The notes beneath the pieces are model-generated. The model saw nothing but the letters and a program-made list of their open reading frames with translations. It was not told the DNA's origin and made no database searches. 64,000 bases of DNA from NCBI RefSeq assembly GCF_026153515.1, contig NZ_CP110644.1, positions 310,001-374,000 of the forward strand. The letters are read 5' to 3'. This DNA comes from Pseudomonas sp. KU26590 (lineage in GTDB: Bacteria; Pseudomonadota; Gammaproteobacteria; Pseudomonadales; Pseudomonadaceae). Of the stretch, positions 31,094-35,114 are shown in pieces. How positions within the stretch are numbered: position 1 is the first letter of the stretch; each line of letters opens with the position of its first letter. The position numbers and the translations under genes are program-made.

Positions 31094-32305
31094 TCAGCAT
31101 CCGGTCAAAACAGCGGGACGACGTTCACCCTCGAAGAAGAACGGCCGAATCCGCACACCCACTGCGTTGCCCGCAAAGGCAGCGACCAGCCAGAGCCAGC
31201 CGTGCAGGCTGCCTGAGGCGATGCCGCTGAAGTACGCGCCGATGTTGCAGCCGTACGCCAGGCGCGAGCCGTAGCCCAGCAACAATCCGCCAATCACTGC
31301 AGCGATCAACGAGCGTGTCGGGATTTTCAGACTCGGGGCGAATCGTCCTGCAAGGCCCGCCGCCACTGCCGCACCCAGCATGATGCCGATGTCCATCACG
31401 GTGGTGATGTCTTCCCACACCGGCGCAGCCAGTGCCTTGGCGTTTGCGGGCATCTGCCAGAACGGCCAACTGCCCACATCCACGCCCAGACCACTGGCGA
31501 CTTTCGCACCCCACAGCGCGAACGCCGAGGTGATTCCCCAAGGTCGACCTGCCAACGCCAACGTGGCGTAGTTGAGTAGCGCCAACCCTACCGCACCCCA
31601 CACCAGCGGCCAGGGACCGCGGAGGAAACGGCGCAAGCCAACGTGCTCACTGGTGACGGCCGCTTCCAGCTCCCCGTGACGACGCTTTTCCAGTTTGACG
31701 GTGACAAAAGCAATGACTGCGAACAGCGCCAGGCTCATGAGCAGCGCAGGGATCACGCCGAAGCTTTTGACAATGGAGGTGGCGGGGAACGACGGCAGCG
31801 AGAACCACCAATCGACGTGATGGGTGGCGATCAGCGAGCCAATGATGAAGAACAGCAAGGTCACGAGCATCCGTGCATTGCCGCCGCCAACGGTGAACAG
31901 CGTGCCGGACGCACAGCCGCCGCCCATTTGCATGCCGATGCCGAAGATGAAGGCACCGAAGACAACGGACACGCCAGCTGGGGCGACGAGGCCGGTGACC
32001 GGCGTGCCGAACAGCGTACCGGCACCCAGCGCAGGGAAAAACAGCACCACCGCGACGGCCAGCATCACCATCTGCGCACGCAGACCGGCGCCGCGTCGCT
32101 CGTTGATGAATACCCGCCAGGCCGAAGTGAAGCCGAAAGCGGCGTGATACAGCGTAAGGCCCAGCGCGGCGCCAACGATCAGCAACAGCACTTGCCTGCC
32201 GCCAACGGCCGATTGGAGAAACAGAGCGCCGACCACCAACAAGAGGAAGGCGATCAGCGGGGCGCCGAGCTTGCGCTGCGGCGCCACAGAGAGGGGAAGA
32301 CTCAT
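31094..32305 (-). CDS. YeeE/YedE-family transporter
   Basis: 403 residues, about ten membrane helices, made of two sulfur-transport (DUF395/YeeE) repeats. Each repeat has its Cys motif: MGGGCASGTLFTVGGGN in the first half and YGCNIGAYFSGIASGSLHGW in the second. E. coli YeeE imports thiosulfate through such cysteines, so uptake of a reduced sulfur compound is a reasonable inference. The ATG at 32305 (MSLPLSVAPQRK) begins just before the first helix; the open frame upstream overlaps the neighbouring regulator gene and has no membrane character. It may share regulation with the MocR gene behind it. Confidence 0.9.
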   Translation of the reverse strand: MSLPLSVAPQRKLGAPLIAFLLLVVGALFLQSAVGGRQVLLLIVGAALGLTLYHAAFGFTSAWRVFINERRGAGLRAQMVMLAVAVVLFFPALGAGTLFGTPVTGLVAPAGVSVVFGAFIFGIGMQMGGGCASGTLFTVGGGNARMLVTLLFFIIGSLIATHHVDWWFSLPSFPATSIVKSFGVIPALLMSLALFAVIAFVTVKLEKRRHGELEAAVTSEHVGLRRFLRGPWPLVWGAVGLALLNYATLALAGRPWGITSAFALWGAKVASGLGVDVGSWPFWQMPANAKALAAPVWEDITTVMDIGIMLGAAVAAGLAGRFAPSLKIPTRSLIAAVIGGLLLGYGSRLAYGCNIGAYFSGIASGSLHGWLWLVAAFAGNAVGVRIRPFFFEGERRPAVLTGC

Positions 32306-32396
32306 GGGCGTATCTCGGAAAAGGATTGCGATGGGCGCGAGTATACGCCGGTGCCTGCTTGGTGACGCGCCAACGCCGCCATTGGCTTCACCACCA

Positions 32397-33944
32397 TCAA
32401 ACCCGCCAGACGCTTCGCAACCGCGCCAGCGCCGAGGCGATATCGGCCTCGGGCACCGCCGCAAAGCCCAGGACCAGCCCGGCCCGATCATCCATCGGCG
32501 TCTTTGACTCCGGTAGCCAATACTCACTCAACGGCGCGACCTCGACGCCAACGCTTTCTGCTTTGGTCACCAGTTCCGTCTCACGCTCTAACGTGTTCAC
32601 CGCGACGGTGACATGCAGCCCTGCAACCGGTTTGATCATCGGGCTGCAACCCGCAAGCTCATGGGGCCAGTCGGCCAGTAATGCGTCGCGTCGACTCAAG
32701 GCAGCACGGCGCATACGGCGGATGTGCCGCTGAAAGTGGCCCGCCGCGATGAACTCGGCCATGACCCTTTGCGTGCCGACCTCGGAATGACGCATGTCTA
32801 CTGCCCTGCGCCGGCTGAACGGCTCTACCAGGTTGCGCGGCAACACCAGATAACCCAGACGCAGCGCCGGAAATGCGACCTTGCCGAAGGTCCCGACATA
32901 CAACACGCGACCGCTACGATCCAACGCTGCCAACGGCGCCAGCGGGGCGCCGCTGTAGCGGTACTCGCCGTCGTAGTCGTCTTCGACGATCCAGCCTTGA
33001 TTGCGCTCGGCCCATGCGAGCAGTTCCAGCCGCCGCGCCAGACTCATTGTCACGCCCAGCGGATACTGATGGGAGGGCGTCACGTACGCCAACTTACAGC
33101 CTGAGTCATTGAGGTTCGGACTGCGCATGCCCTCGGCGTCAACCGCCATGCCCTGCAACCTTGCGCCAGCGACCCCGAAGGCATGACCGGCCGCGCGGTA
33201 CCCCGGATTTTCGATGGCTACCACGTCGCCCTGCTCCAGGAGCAGCTGTGCACAAAGGGTAATCGCCTGCTGAGCGCCGTTGGTGATCACAATTTGCTCA
33301 GGTGCGCAGCGCAGATCGCGGGACGTCCTTAAATAAGCAGCGATCAACTCTCGCAGCCGCCATTCGCCGGCAGGGTCGCCGTAGCCCAGATGTTGCAGGC
33401 CCGGTTTACGCCAGAAAGCCGCGTGCAGCTTGCCCCACGTGTCGAAAGGGAAGAGGTCGAATGCCGGAACGCCTGTTCGAAACGCCCTCGGCAGACCACT
33501 TTTCGTGGGCCATAGATGATGCTGCTCCAGCGTATGAATCGCCGTGCTGTGGATAACATTGTTCGAGGGTTCTACCGCTGCTATTGAGGATTTTGTGGAT
33601 AACCCTGTTGATAAGCTTGGTGATAACCCTGTGGACAGGTGTGTGGATAGTTTTTTCGCAGTCGGCGGTTTCTCCCTCAACAGTGCAACGTAGGTACCAT
33701 CGCCCACACGGCTCTCGGTAAAGCCCTCAGCGTAGAGCTGGTCATAAGCGCGCATCACGCTGTTGCGGGAAATGCCGAGGGACAACGCCAGATCCCGGCT
33801 CGCTGGCAAGCGCGTGCCTCCCGACACGCGACCGTCGAGGATGCGCTCGCGCAGCGTCTGATACAGCTGGCGGCTAAGACCATGGCGGCGGTTCAACTCG
33901 ATGCCGGCGAAATCGAACGTCAGCGCTGGCGTGGGAGTGTGCAT
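32397..33944 (-). CDS. MocR-family regulator (GntR HTH fused to aminotransferase)
   Basis: 515 residues. N-terminal GntR winged helix (about 15-85: LYQTLRERILDGRVSGGTRLPASRDLALSLGISRNSVMRAYDQL), a linker (about 95-150), and a class I aminotransferase domain that binds PLP (about 160-515) with DDYDGEYRYSG and the likely Schiff-base Lys in VGTFGKVAFPALRLGY. Such proteins sense PLP or amino compounds. The linker is odd: LSTH-LSTG-LSPS-LSTG-LSTK, coded by 12-bp tandem repeats that look like DnaA boxes (33595-33651). It is divergent from a PaiB-like gene, a probable target. PdxR is one possibility, but the pdxST neighbours are absent. Confidence 0.9.
   Translation of the reverse strand: MHTPTPALTFDFAGIELNRRHGLSRQLYQTLRERILDGRVSGGTRLPASRDLALSLGISRNSVMRAYDQLYAEGFTESRVGDGTYVALLREKPPTAKKLSTHLSTGLSPSLSTGLSTKSSIAAVEPSNNVIHSTAIHTLEQHHLWPTKSGLPRAFRTGVPAFDLFPFDTWGKLHAAFWRKPGLQHLGYGDPAGEWRLRELIAAYLRTSRDLRCAPEQIVITNGAQQAITLCAQLLLEQGDVVAIENPGYRAAGHAFGVAGARLQGMAVDAEGMRSPNLNDSGCKLAYVTPSHQYPLGVTMSLARRLELLAWAERNQGWIVEDDYDGEYRYSGAPLAPLAALDRSGRVLYVGTFGKVAFPALRLGYLVLPRNLVEPFSRRRAVDMRHSEVGTQRVMAEFIAAGHFQRHIRRMRRAALSRRDALLADWPHELAGCSPMIKPVAGLHVTVAVNTLERETELVTKAESVGVEVAPLSEYWLPESKTPMDDRAGLVLGFAAVPEADIASALARLRSVWRV
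33595..33651. repeat. Five tandem 12-bp units resembling DnaA boxes
   Basis: Units begin at 33595, 33607, 33619, 33631 and 33643, exactly 12 bases apart: TGTGGATAACCC, TGTTGATAAGCT, TGGTGATAACCC, TGTGGACAGGTG, TGTGGATAG. The first nine bases of unit 1 are the perfect DnaA box (complement TTATCCACA); unit 5 differs at one position and unit 2 at one. Another perfect box lies at 33549-33557. The units also code for the repeated L-S-T-x linker of the MocR protein on the minus strand. Confidence 0.85.
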
Positions 33945-34033
33945 GGCATTGGCCCTATGAGATTGACCATAAATGGCTCTTACAACGAACCAATAGGCTG
34001 CCTAGGATTGACTCAGCCGCCAAGGAAAATCTC

Positions 34034-34675
34034 ATGTACACGCCCAGCTATTTCAAAGATGAAGACCTCGCCAGCTTACACAGGCAGATAGAGGCCACGC
34101 GCCTGGCGACACTGGTCACTTTTGACGAGACCGGTTTGCAGGCGAGTCATATCCCCTTGCTGCTCGAACCGACTCAAGGTCCGCAAGGCACGCTGTATGG
34201 GCATCTGGCCAAGGCCAATCCGCAGTGGAAAGCCCTCGAGACGGGTGCCGAAGCGCTGTTGATTTTCCAGGGAGCGGACGCCTACATCAGCCCTTCTTTT
34301 TATGCCGCCAAGGCCGAGCATGGCAAAGTGGTGCCCACGTGGAATTATCTGGCGGTGCACGCGTATGGCCGTGCCGATGTATTCATTGATCCCGAGCGGT
34401 TATTGCGGATTGTCACCGGCCTGACCGACAAGCACGAAGCCAGCCGTGCCGAGCCCTGGGCTGTAAGCGACGCACCCGCCGATTACGTTGCGAAGATGCT
34501 CAACGGCATCGTCGGCTTCGCGATCCCCATCGAGCGGCTTGAAGGCAAGCGCAAGCTCAACCAAAACCGCAGCGCCGAAGACATCGCCGGCGTCAGCAAA
34601 GGCCTGGCACTCAGCCAAGACCCCTCCGATCAGAAAATCGCTCAGTCGATGAGCCCGGGAGCACCGCGTGTCTGA
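34034..34675 (+). CDS. FMN-binding split-barrel protein, PaiB family
   Basis: 213 residues of the PaiB (transcriptional regulator/FMN-binding) family. The start MYTPSYFKDEDLASLHRQIEATRLATLVTF and the central HLAKANPQW ... VVPTWNYLAVHAYG are typical. Members bind FMN in a split-barrel fold; Bacillus PaiB was named as a repressor but most homologues are uncharacterised. AAGGAA precedes the ATG. It is divergent from the MocR regulator (89 bases between) and overlaps the next acetyltransferase gene by 8 bases. In Bacillus paiB is likewise next to an acetyltransferase (paiA). Confidence 0.9.
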   Translation: MYTPSYFKDEDLASLHRQIEATRLATLVTFDETGLQASHIPLLLEPTQGPQGTLYGHLAKANPQWKALETGAEALLIFQGADAYISPSFYAAKAEHGKVVPTWNYLAVHAYGRADVFIDPERLLRIVTGLTDKHEASRAEPWAVSDAPADYVAKMLNGIVGFAIPIERLEGKRKLNQNRSAEDIAGVSKGLALSQDPSDQKIAQSMSPGAPRV

Positions 34676-35114
34676 CCTCCACATCCGCCCCGTCACTGCC
34701 GAAGATCACGACGCCTGGTTGCCGTTGTGGCACGCTTATCTGACCTTCTACAACACCACGCTGGCCGACGCGGTTTCACAGAGCACCTGGCAGCGGTTTC
34801 TGGACAGCAGCGAGCCGACCAACGCCGCCCTCGCCTGGCAGGACGGCAAGGCGGTGGGCATGGTGCATTTCATTTATCACCGCTCCAACTGGAGCATCAG
34901 CAATGCCTGCTACTTGCAGGACTTGCTGGTGGTGCCGGAACAGCGCGGCACGGGCGTTGGCCGCCAGCTGATTGAGTACGTCTACGCGACCGCCAAACAA
35001 GACGGCGCCGACAAAGTCCATTGGCTCACCCACGAGACCAACGCAACCGCCATTCAGCTCTACGAGCGCATCGCTGAGCGCCCGGGCCTTATTCAATTTC
35101 GCAAACCGCTGTAA
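34668..35114 (+). CDS. GNAT acetyltransferase (GTG start)
   Basis: 148 residues with the GNAT fold. The acetyl-CoA motif A is VVPEQRGTGVGRQLIEYVYATAKQ (about 87-110), and THETNATAIQLYERI is the late helix. Substrate unknown. The GTG at 34668 follows GGGAG, and the first 8 bases overlap the PaiB-like gene, so the two are translationally coupled. Confidence 0.9.
   Translation: MSDLHIRPVTAEDHDAWLPLWHAYLTFYNTTLADAVSQSTWQRFLDSSEPTNAALAWQDGKAVGMVHFIYHRSNWSISNACYLQDLLVVPEQRGTGVGRQLIEYVYATAKQDGADKVHWLTHETNATAIQLYERIAERPGLIQFRKPL

Follow-up and report, generated by a model that had tools for sequence, protein, structure and literature searches.

Within the coding sequence of a MocR-type regulator gene of Pseudomonas sp. 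KU26590, we found five 9-mers resembling boxes for DnaA, the initiator of chromosome replication, arranged at exact 12-bp steps, and this array, judged by its spelling among related genomes, is a conserved DNA element. Very probably, selection maintains the array as a DNA element bound by DnaA, and the reading that we prefer, at a probability of about 0.6, is that the element occupies a tolerant protein linker and would serve, as a cooperative DnaA-ATP array, as a titration sink against re-initiation. Support in this analysis comes from the position, spacing, and orientation of the boxes, from conservation at the codon level, from a conserved pattern of weak and strong boxes, and from the presence of the array in genomes without the gene.

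RESULTS

Five DnaA-box-like units in the interdomain linker of a MocR regulator

The window analyzed is a stretch of 64,000 nucleotides, corresponding to positions 310001-374000 of a 6.18-Mb single-contig genome. Its relevant features, in window coordinates, are as follows.

31094..32527, minus strand: sulphur transport protein, neighboring gene (PF04143; start uncertain)
32397..33944, minus strand: MocR/PdxR-type regulator gene, host of the array (ORF of 515 aa; NCBIfam and Pfam profiles)
33548..33556, minus strand: perfect DnaA box downstream of the array, read in a different frame (GTT ATC CAC AG-) (DnaA-box scan)
33557..33593, minus strand: 37-bp spacer separating unit 5 and the downstream box (fixed length, variable sequence)
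33594..33602, minus strand: unit 5, TTATCCACA, perfect box, putative anchor (DnaA-box scan)
33606..33614, minus strand: unit 4, TTATCAACA, 1 mismatch (DnaA-box scan)
33618..33626, minus strand: unit 3, TTATCACCA, 2 mismatches (DnaA-box comparison)
33630..33638, minus strand: unit 2, CTGTCCACA, 2 mismatches (DnaA-box comparison)
33642..33650, minus strand: unit 1, CTATCCACA, 1 mismatch (DnaA-box scan)
34034..34675, plus strand: FMN-binding protein, neighboring gene, divergent from MocR (PF04299)
34668..35114, plus strand: GNAT acetyltransferase, neighboring gene (PF00583)

The five units are all oriented on the minus strand, with 3 bp between one unit and the next. A preliminary description of this DNA had reported five units at 12-base steps, one of them perfect and two with a single mismatch, as well as a further perfect box at 33549-33557. 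The array and these box qualities were borne out, the remaining two units carrying two mismatches each, but the coordinates had been set one base too high, and the extra box lies at 33556-33548. The array had also been placed in an L-S-T-x linker between the helix-turn-helix (HTH) and aminotransferase domains, and this held: its codons translate as LSTH-LSTG-LSPS-LSTG-LST and lie between the Pfam matches to GntR (PF00392, residues 23-86) and to the aminotransferase domain (PF00155, residues 187-424). DnaA-box sites with at most one mismatch numbered 13 in the window; 100 shuffled versions gave 5.95 such sites on average (SD, 2.30) and never as many as 13. The paired motif TTATCNAC-NNNN-TTATCNAC occurred only once in the 6.18-Mb genome, at the array locus.

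The host protein scored 423.7 bits against the NCBIfam profile PLP_TF_PdxR (NF052282; cut-off, 320) and 431.8 bits against the rhizopine MocR profile NF052281, below the cut-off of 650 for that profile. The gene resembles PdxR-type MocR regulators in exceeding the NCBIfam PdxR cut-off, and it differs from them in having, in one Pseudomonas group, a linker built around DnaA boxes. The array is situated about 300 bp into the gene. Scanning of 33300-34100 detected no promoter-like sequence, and the single terminator-like site that it gave was not above shuffled sequences.

Conservation of the array among Pseudomonas genomes

A match to the MocR gene (E 1e-100) was present in 189 of 199 Pseudomonas genomes, and the three-unit 12-bp pattern with at most 3 mismatches was present in 126 of the 199, the reversed control giving 0. 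From a first set of 162 loci, nine were dropped as duplicates or as not MocR, leaving 153 loci, one per genome, and 152 of these carried the five-unit array: the best 12-bp array had 3 to 7 mismatches in 45 bases, versus 19 to 24 for the same sequences reversed. The preliminary description had suggested that copy number be compared across related strains, and this comparison revealed almost no variation. The sole locus of the 153 without an array (L137 in genome G129; best five-unit score, 23 mismatches) has the MocR gene, lies 2.1 Mb from dnaA, and retains the FMN-binding and acetyltransferase neighbors.

Among 30 of the 35 distant MocR homologues found, five had arrays (6 to 7 mismatches), one (L349) had a partial array (11 mismatches), and 24 had none; of the distant linkers printed, most were of reduced length and had a high content of Ala and Pro. 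Since 24 of these 30 homologues are without it, the array belongs to one large Pseudomonas group and not to the whole genus. The two-unit pattern occurred in 59 of the 73 Pseudomonas genomes that gave no three-unit match, frequently at MocR and also at other sites, and in a wider set the three-unit pattern was found in 13 of 369 genomes, that of the window included. A scan of genome contigs for a box followed by 36 nt and GTTATCCACAG returned at least 119 stretches; among the matches listed, all 84 from Pseudomonas were the array in MocR, as against none of the 35 from elsewhere. The named carriers among the matches listed included isolates of P. fluorescens, P. syringae, P. fragi, P. lini, and P. 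alkylphenolica, and the 84 named loci overlap with the set of 152 arrays.

The spacer between unit 5 and the downstream box was identical in length in 144 of 147 aligned rows despite variation in its sequence, one of the other three (L050) being a misread. At this fixed distance the downstream box was perfect in 121 of the 152 loci and one base off in 6, i.e., with at most one mismatch in 127, and it was missing from its place in 25. In two loci (L078 and L105), a perfect downstream box was displaced by exactly 12 nt, nearer to or farther from unit 5, a shift equal to one repeat of the array.

Triplets of perfect boxes spaced by 12 bp were also observed in other gammaproteobacteria (three loci inspected of 16 listed: L207, L210, and L218), next to genes that we take to be rnpA/yidD/yidC-like, DnaN-like, and cinA-like, respectively.

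Codon spelling of the array and of the downstream box

The codon alignment comprised 147 rows, with six of the 153 loci left out (L004, L014, L064, L125, L143, and L152); L050 entered it in a wrong frame and so scored against the array, which is itself intact at that locus. Unit 5 was spelled with TTA in 142 of 145 rows, TCC in 146 of 146, and ACA in 145 of 146, and elsewhere in the aligned gene these codons account for 6.0% of Leu, 17.4% of Ser, and 8.2% of Thr codons, respectively. The mean fraction of the dominant codon was 0.89 over the 25 array columns versus 0.62 over 159 other columns (Mann-Whitney p 3e-10, with columns treated as independent). The downstream box, which is read in another frame, was likewise almost constant, with GTT in 123/124, ATC in 123/124, and CAC in 123/125 of the rows having Val, Ile, and His there. 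Whether DNA or only protein is conserved in the linkers of relatives had been raised as a check in the preliminary description; the DNA is conserved, its codons being fixed to the box spelling.

At 33420-33443, where the aminotransferase domain begins, we observed a second patch of almost invariant synonymous codons (GCC, 122/122; AAG, 141/141; GCG, 120/124), and no DnaA box is present there.

Strong and weak boxes keep their places

The quality of the boxes depends on the unit, as counted without removing genome relatedness. Unit 5 was perfect in 149 of 152 loci and in all 84 named loci, the search for which itself included the perfect box. Unit 4 had exactly one mismatch in 141 of the 152 and was perfect in 4, and perfect copies occurred in 4 of the 84 named loci among the matches listed. 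Unit 3 was the most variable, with two or more mismatches in 133/152. Unit 2 was never perfect in the 152 loci (one mismatch in 111, two in 41) and was perfect in 1 of the 84 named loci among the matches listed, and unit 1 had at most one mismatch in 141/152. Perfect boxes at units 2 and 4 do therefore turn up, which counts against a fixed weak pattern.

At unit 4, a single mismatch was reached by three main routes (TTACCCACA, TTATCCCCA, and TTATCAACA in 61, 31, and 29 of 145 rows, respectively), and on a tree built without the linker the unit underwent at least 31 changes of the 9-mer and 10 of mismatch class. The residues encoded there vary (LPT, 63; LST, 39; LSP, 31), and the box class is almost constant. 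LST was encoded at unit 2 in 50 rows, none of which spell TTATCCACA. The Ser codon preceding Thr, again counted with relatedness retained, was TCC at units 1, 2, and 5 (145/145, 140/142, and 146/146 rows) and mostly TCA at units 3 and 4 (90/98 and 30/46 rows). This position-specific spelling of Ser-Thr leaves a single strong box as anchor with weak boxes around it, an arrangement also seen in oriC.

The array in genomes without the MocR gene

Ten of the 199 Pseudomonas genomes had no MocR match, and two of these, G043 and G037, carried the array next to the same neighbor; the three-unit array was not found in the remaining eight. In G043, five units (TTATCCACA, GTATCCACA, TTATACCCA, TTACACACA, and TTATCCACA) lie between the sulphur-transport gene on one side and two acetyltransferase genes on the other, and the 18-kb stretch gave no tblastn match to the MocR or the FMN-binding gene. 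Within the 3-kb locus, the array was the only strong nucleotide match to the MocR region of the window (56 bp, 82%, E 4e-11; next best, E 0.02). In G037, four units are left, adjoining two acetyltransferase genes, and the 16-kb stretch gave no match to the MocR, FMN-binding, or sulphur-transport gene. That the array was kept in two genomes after loss of the gene points to a hidden element for the control of DNA replication.

Chromosomal position and surrounding DnaA boxes

In the window genome, dnaA starts at 418231, 74 kb from MocR. For the 109 array loci with both genes listed on one contig, the distance from array to dnaA had a median of 90 kb (5-95%, 54-134 kb), and 107 of them lie 48 to 173 kb from dnaA, the exceptions, both beyond 200 kb, being G094 (275 kb) and G029 (1.33 Mb). 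Array-less MocR homologues are found near dnaA too, several of them at 60 to 125 kb (e.g., 64 kb in G008 and 105 kb in G138), and thus nearness to oriC is independent of the array.

The perfect box TTATCCACA occurs in 98 copies in the 6.18-Mb genome, and the reversed motif in 12. Of these perfect boxes, 33 lie within 40 kb of oriC versus 1.3 expected, in a dense belt around dnaA (G000:C1:382907-440971). Separately, seven perfect boxes were observed within 2.8 kb at about 350 kb from oriC (G000:C1:768635-771385, L371). In several Pseudomonas genomes (two loci inspected: L177 and L184, in G015 and G189), a 12-bp box pair was observed about 20 to 33 kb beyond dnaA, on the opposite side, flanked by what are presumably def-like and dprA-like genes; at the corresponding site of the window genome (G000:C1:440334-440354), only the second box is intact, and the first has 3 mismatches.

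Comparison with known DnaA-box systems

The known systems are compared here as they are presented in portions of the cited papers. In E. coli, DnaA binds best to tandem boxes 2 to 3 bp apart, and at purH a perfect box comes 3 bp after a weaker one, a single base pair added between the two causing a large loss of binding (PMC11317965). The MocR array has two or more tandem 9-mers at such a distance, its consecutive units being separated by 3 bp in 152 of 153 loci, and its units 4 and 5 resemble the weak-then-perfect pair of purH; by its sequence, the array is a chain of tandem-box pairs of the E. coli type. It differs from the double box described in that paper in that five boxes stand in series, lie within coding sequence, and are conserved throughout a lineage. 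The sequence of unit 5, TTATCCACA, is the high-affinity box of P. putida (PMC4285127). Low-affinity DnaA arrays in E. coli oriC likewise consist of weak boxes nucleated by high-affinity boxes, and their filling starts from these strong anchors (PMC4285127); unlike them, the MocR array is away from the origin and has no AT-rich unwinding element. Dense DnaA boxes also surround oriC in E. coli, with titration as their proposed role (PMC12371093), and the MocR array lies near such a dense region; the array differs in being one ordered array conserved in one gene.

The locus datA of E. coli resembles the MocR array in having few boxes of mixed strength near oriC at conserved spacing, and it differs in being non-coding and IHF dependent (PMC10950094, PMC4585315). 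In the MocR locus, a cluster of boxes of mixed affinity, as predicted from their sequence, and closeness to oriC (median, 90 kb from dnaA) were both found. The array is coding in the window and its orthologues, and it lies outside MocR only in G043 and G037. No IHF consensus site was present at a conserved place within about 320 bp in 147 loci, a scan which weaker Pseudomonas IHF sites could escape. The scan for WATCAANNNNTTR with at most one mismatch gave 85 matches in the 147 loci (8 after shuffling). Of the 85, 54 overlap with the DnaA boxes, and no other group was larger than 15 loci, which share a match about 60 nt downstream. The lack of a conserved IHF consensus leaves the datA hydrolysis route unsupported, and, with two tested datA features failing (a conserved IHF site and a non-coding locus), we did not classify the array as datA. 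The idea, put forward in the preliminary description, that a permissive linker houses a DnaA-titrating locus like datA is supported as to the conserved DnaA-box DNA, with DnaA binding and titration as putative functions.

The DARS1 and DARS2 cores contain oppositely oriented boxes. All six boxes at the MocR locus are on one strand.

DISCUSSION

How the array could act

We propose that the MocR array is a DNA element selected for binding of DnaA, the tolerant protein linker being an incidental location. DnaA would be anchored at unit 5, the perfect box, and further DnaA subunits, probably of DnaA-ATP only, would join head to tail over units 4 to 1, which are weaker, in the same orientation, and at 12-bp steps. 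By analogy with the weak boxes of oriC, which are filled from anchors, a DnaA-ATP filament is expected to start at unit 5 and to grow through unit 4 as far as unit 1, and the downstream box would provide an additional contact for DnaA in most species. At about 90 kb from oriC, the array would be duplicated soon after initiation. Its demand for DnaA-ATP would then double just when re-initiation must be blocked, and the second copy, together with the many boxes of the oriC region, would withdraw DnaA-ATP and help to prevent re-initiation. DnaA binding, a preference for the ATP form, titration, and an effect on initiation are what we infer for the array. Counting against this proposal, a single array adds few sites beside the 33 perfect boxes lying within 40 kb of oriC. 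The distant MocR genes lacking the array, the eight genomes with neither a MocR match nor a three-unit array, the gene without array in G129, the remote array of G029, and the 25 loci with the downstream box out of place also weigh against it. A stronger version, to which we give even odds, is that of a dedicated replication-control element with a role equivalent to that of datA, encrypted in coding sequence as one strong and four weak boxes at 12-bp steps, the regulator gene thereby doubling as a site of DnaA-ATP oligomerization.

Alternative explanations

DnaA at the array could instead switch or block the transcription of MocR or of neighboring genes, tying their expression to the level of DnaA-ATP and leaving initiation unaffected. 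This is unlikely: the array does lie inside the gene, and E. coli DnaA, according to portions of two papers, regulates genes and can block transcription (PMC11317965, PMC10950094), but in G043 and G037 the array exists where neither MocR nor the FMN-binding gene was matched. An acetyltransferase gene still adjoins the array in both genomes, and the array may thus be a switch for that gene.

We consider it rather improbable that the array inactivates or reactivates DnaA-ATP, with a true datA or DARS activity, instead of titrating passively. Its ordered boxes close to oriC agree with such an activity, as datA in E. coli is described as always close to oriC (PMC4585315), but the absence of a conserved IHF consensus nearby and the common orientation of all six boxes speak against it.

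An auxiliary or dormant replication origin is very improbable. Weak boxes stand next to a strong one, as in oriC, and 12-bp triple arrays occur at two other gammaproteobacterial loci by genes presumed to be rnpA/yidD/yidC-like and DnaN-like, but no AT-rich unwinding element was found in 33000-34300, where the lowest 100-bp GC content was 45%, and for want of such a stretch the array was not classified as an origin.

Scarcely credible, finally, is the accidental spelling of DnaA boxes by a protein-level repeat, through selection on an LSTG linker peptide or through repeat slippage, a reading left open in the preliminary description and agreeing with in-frame L-S-T-x units at 12-nt steps, which we rejected because rare codons are fixed throughout the lineage with position-specific synonymous choices, orthologues with LST linkers are free of synonymous codons that break the boxes, the box class of unit 4 is nearly constant over varying residues, the downstream box is also conserved and is read in a different frame, and the array DNA exists without MocR in two genomes.

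Implications

In terms of the DnaA-box systems otherwise known, a DnaA-box array embedded in coding sequence would be new. The open-licence PMC literature, a scope outside which subscription papers and preprints fall, contained no report of the MocR array or of a link between DnaA boxes and MocR, and datA, DARS1, and DARS2 of E. coli are described as non-coding in the relevant part of one paper (PMC4585315). If the titration reading is true, a lineage-wide control element of the general sort of datA and DARS would reside within a gene and so escape searches of intergenic DNA. The boxes could be removed with the protein residues unchanged, which would make DnaA titration readily testable outside E. 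coli, and the conserved combination of a single strong box with several weak ones would amount to a natural experiment in the reading of arrays by DnaA.

Six genomes among the matches listed have a different three-unit array (TTAACCACAGACTTATCCACAGGCTT...) at a separate locus; the two loci inspected (L170 in G071 and L171 in G114) lie near genes that we take to be ABC-transporter-ATPase-like and dehydrogenase-like.
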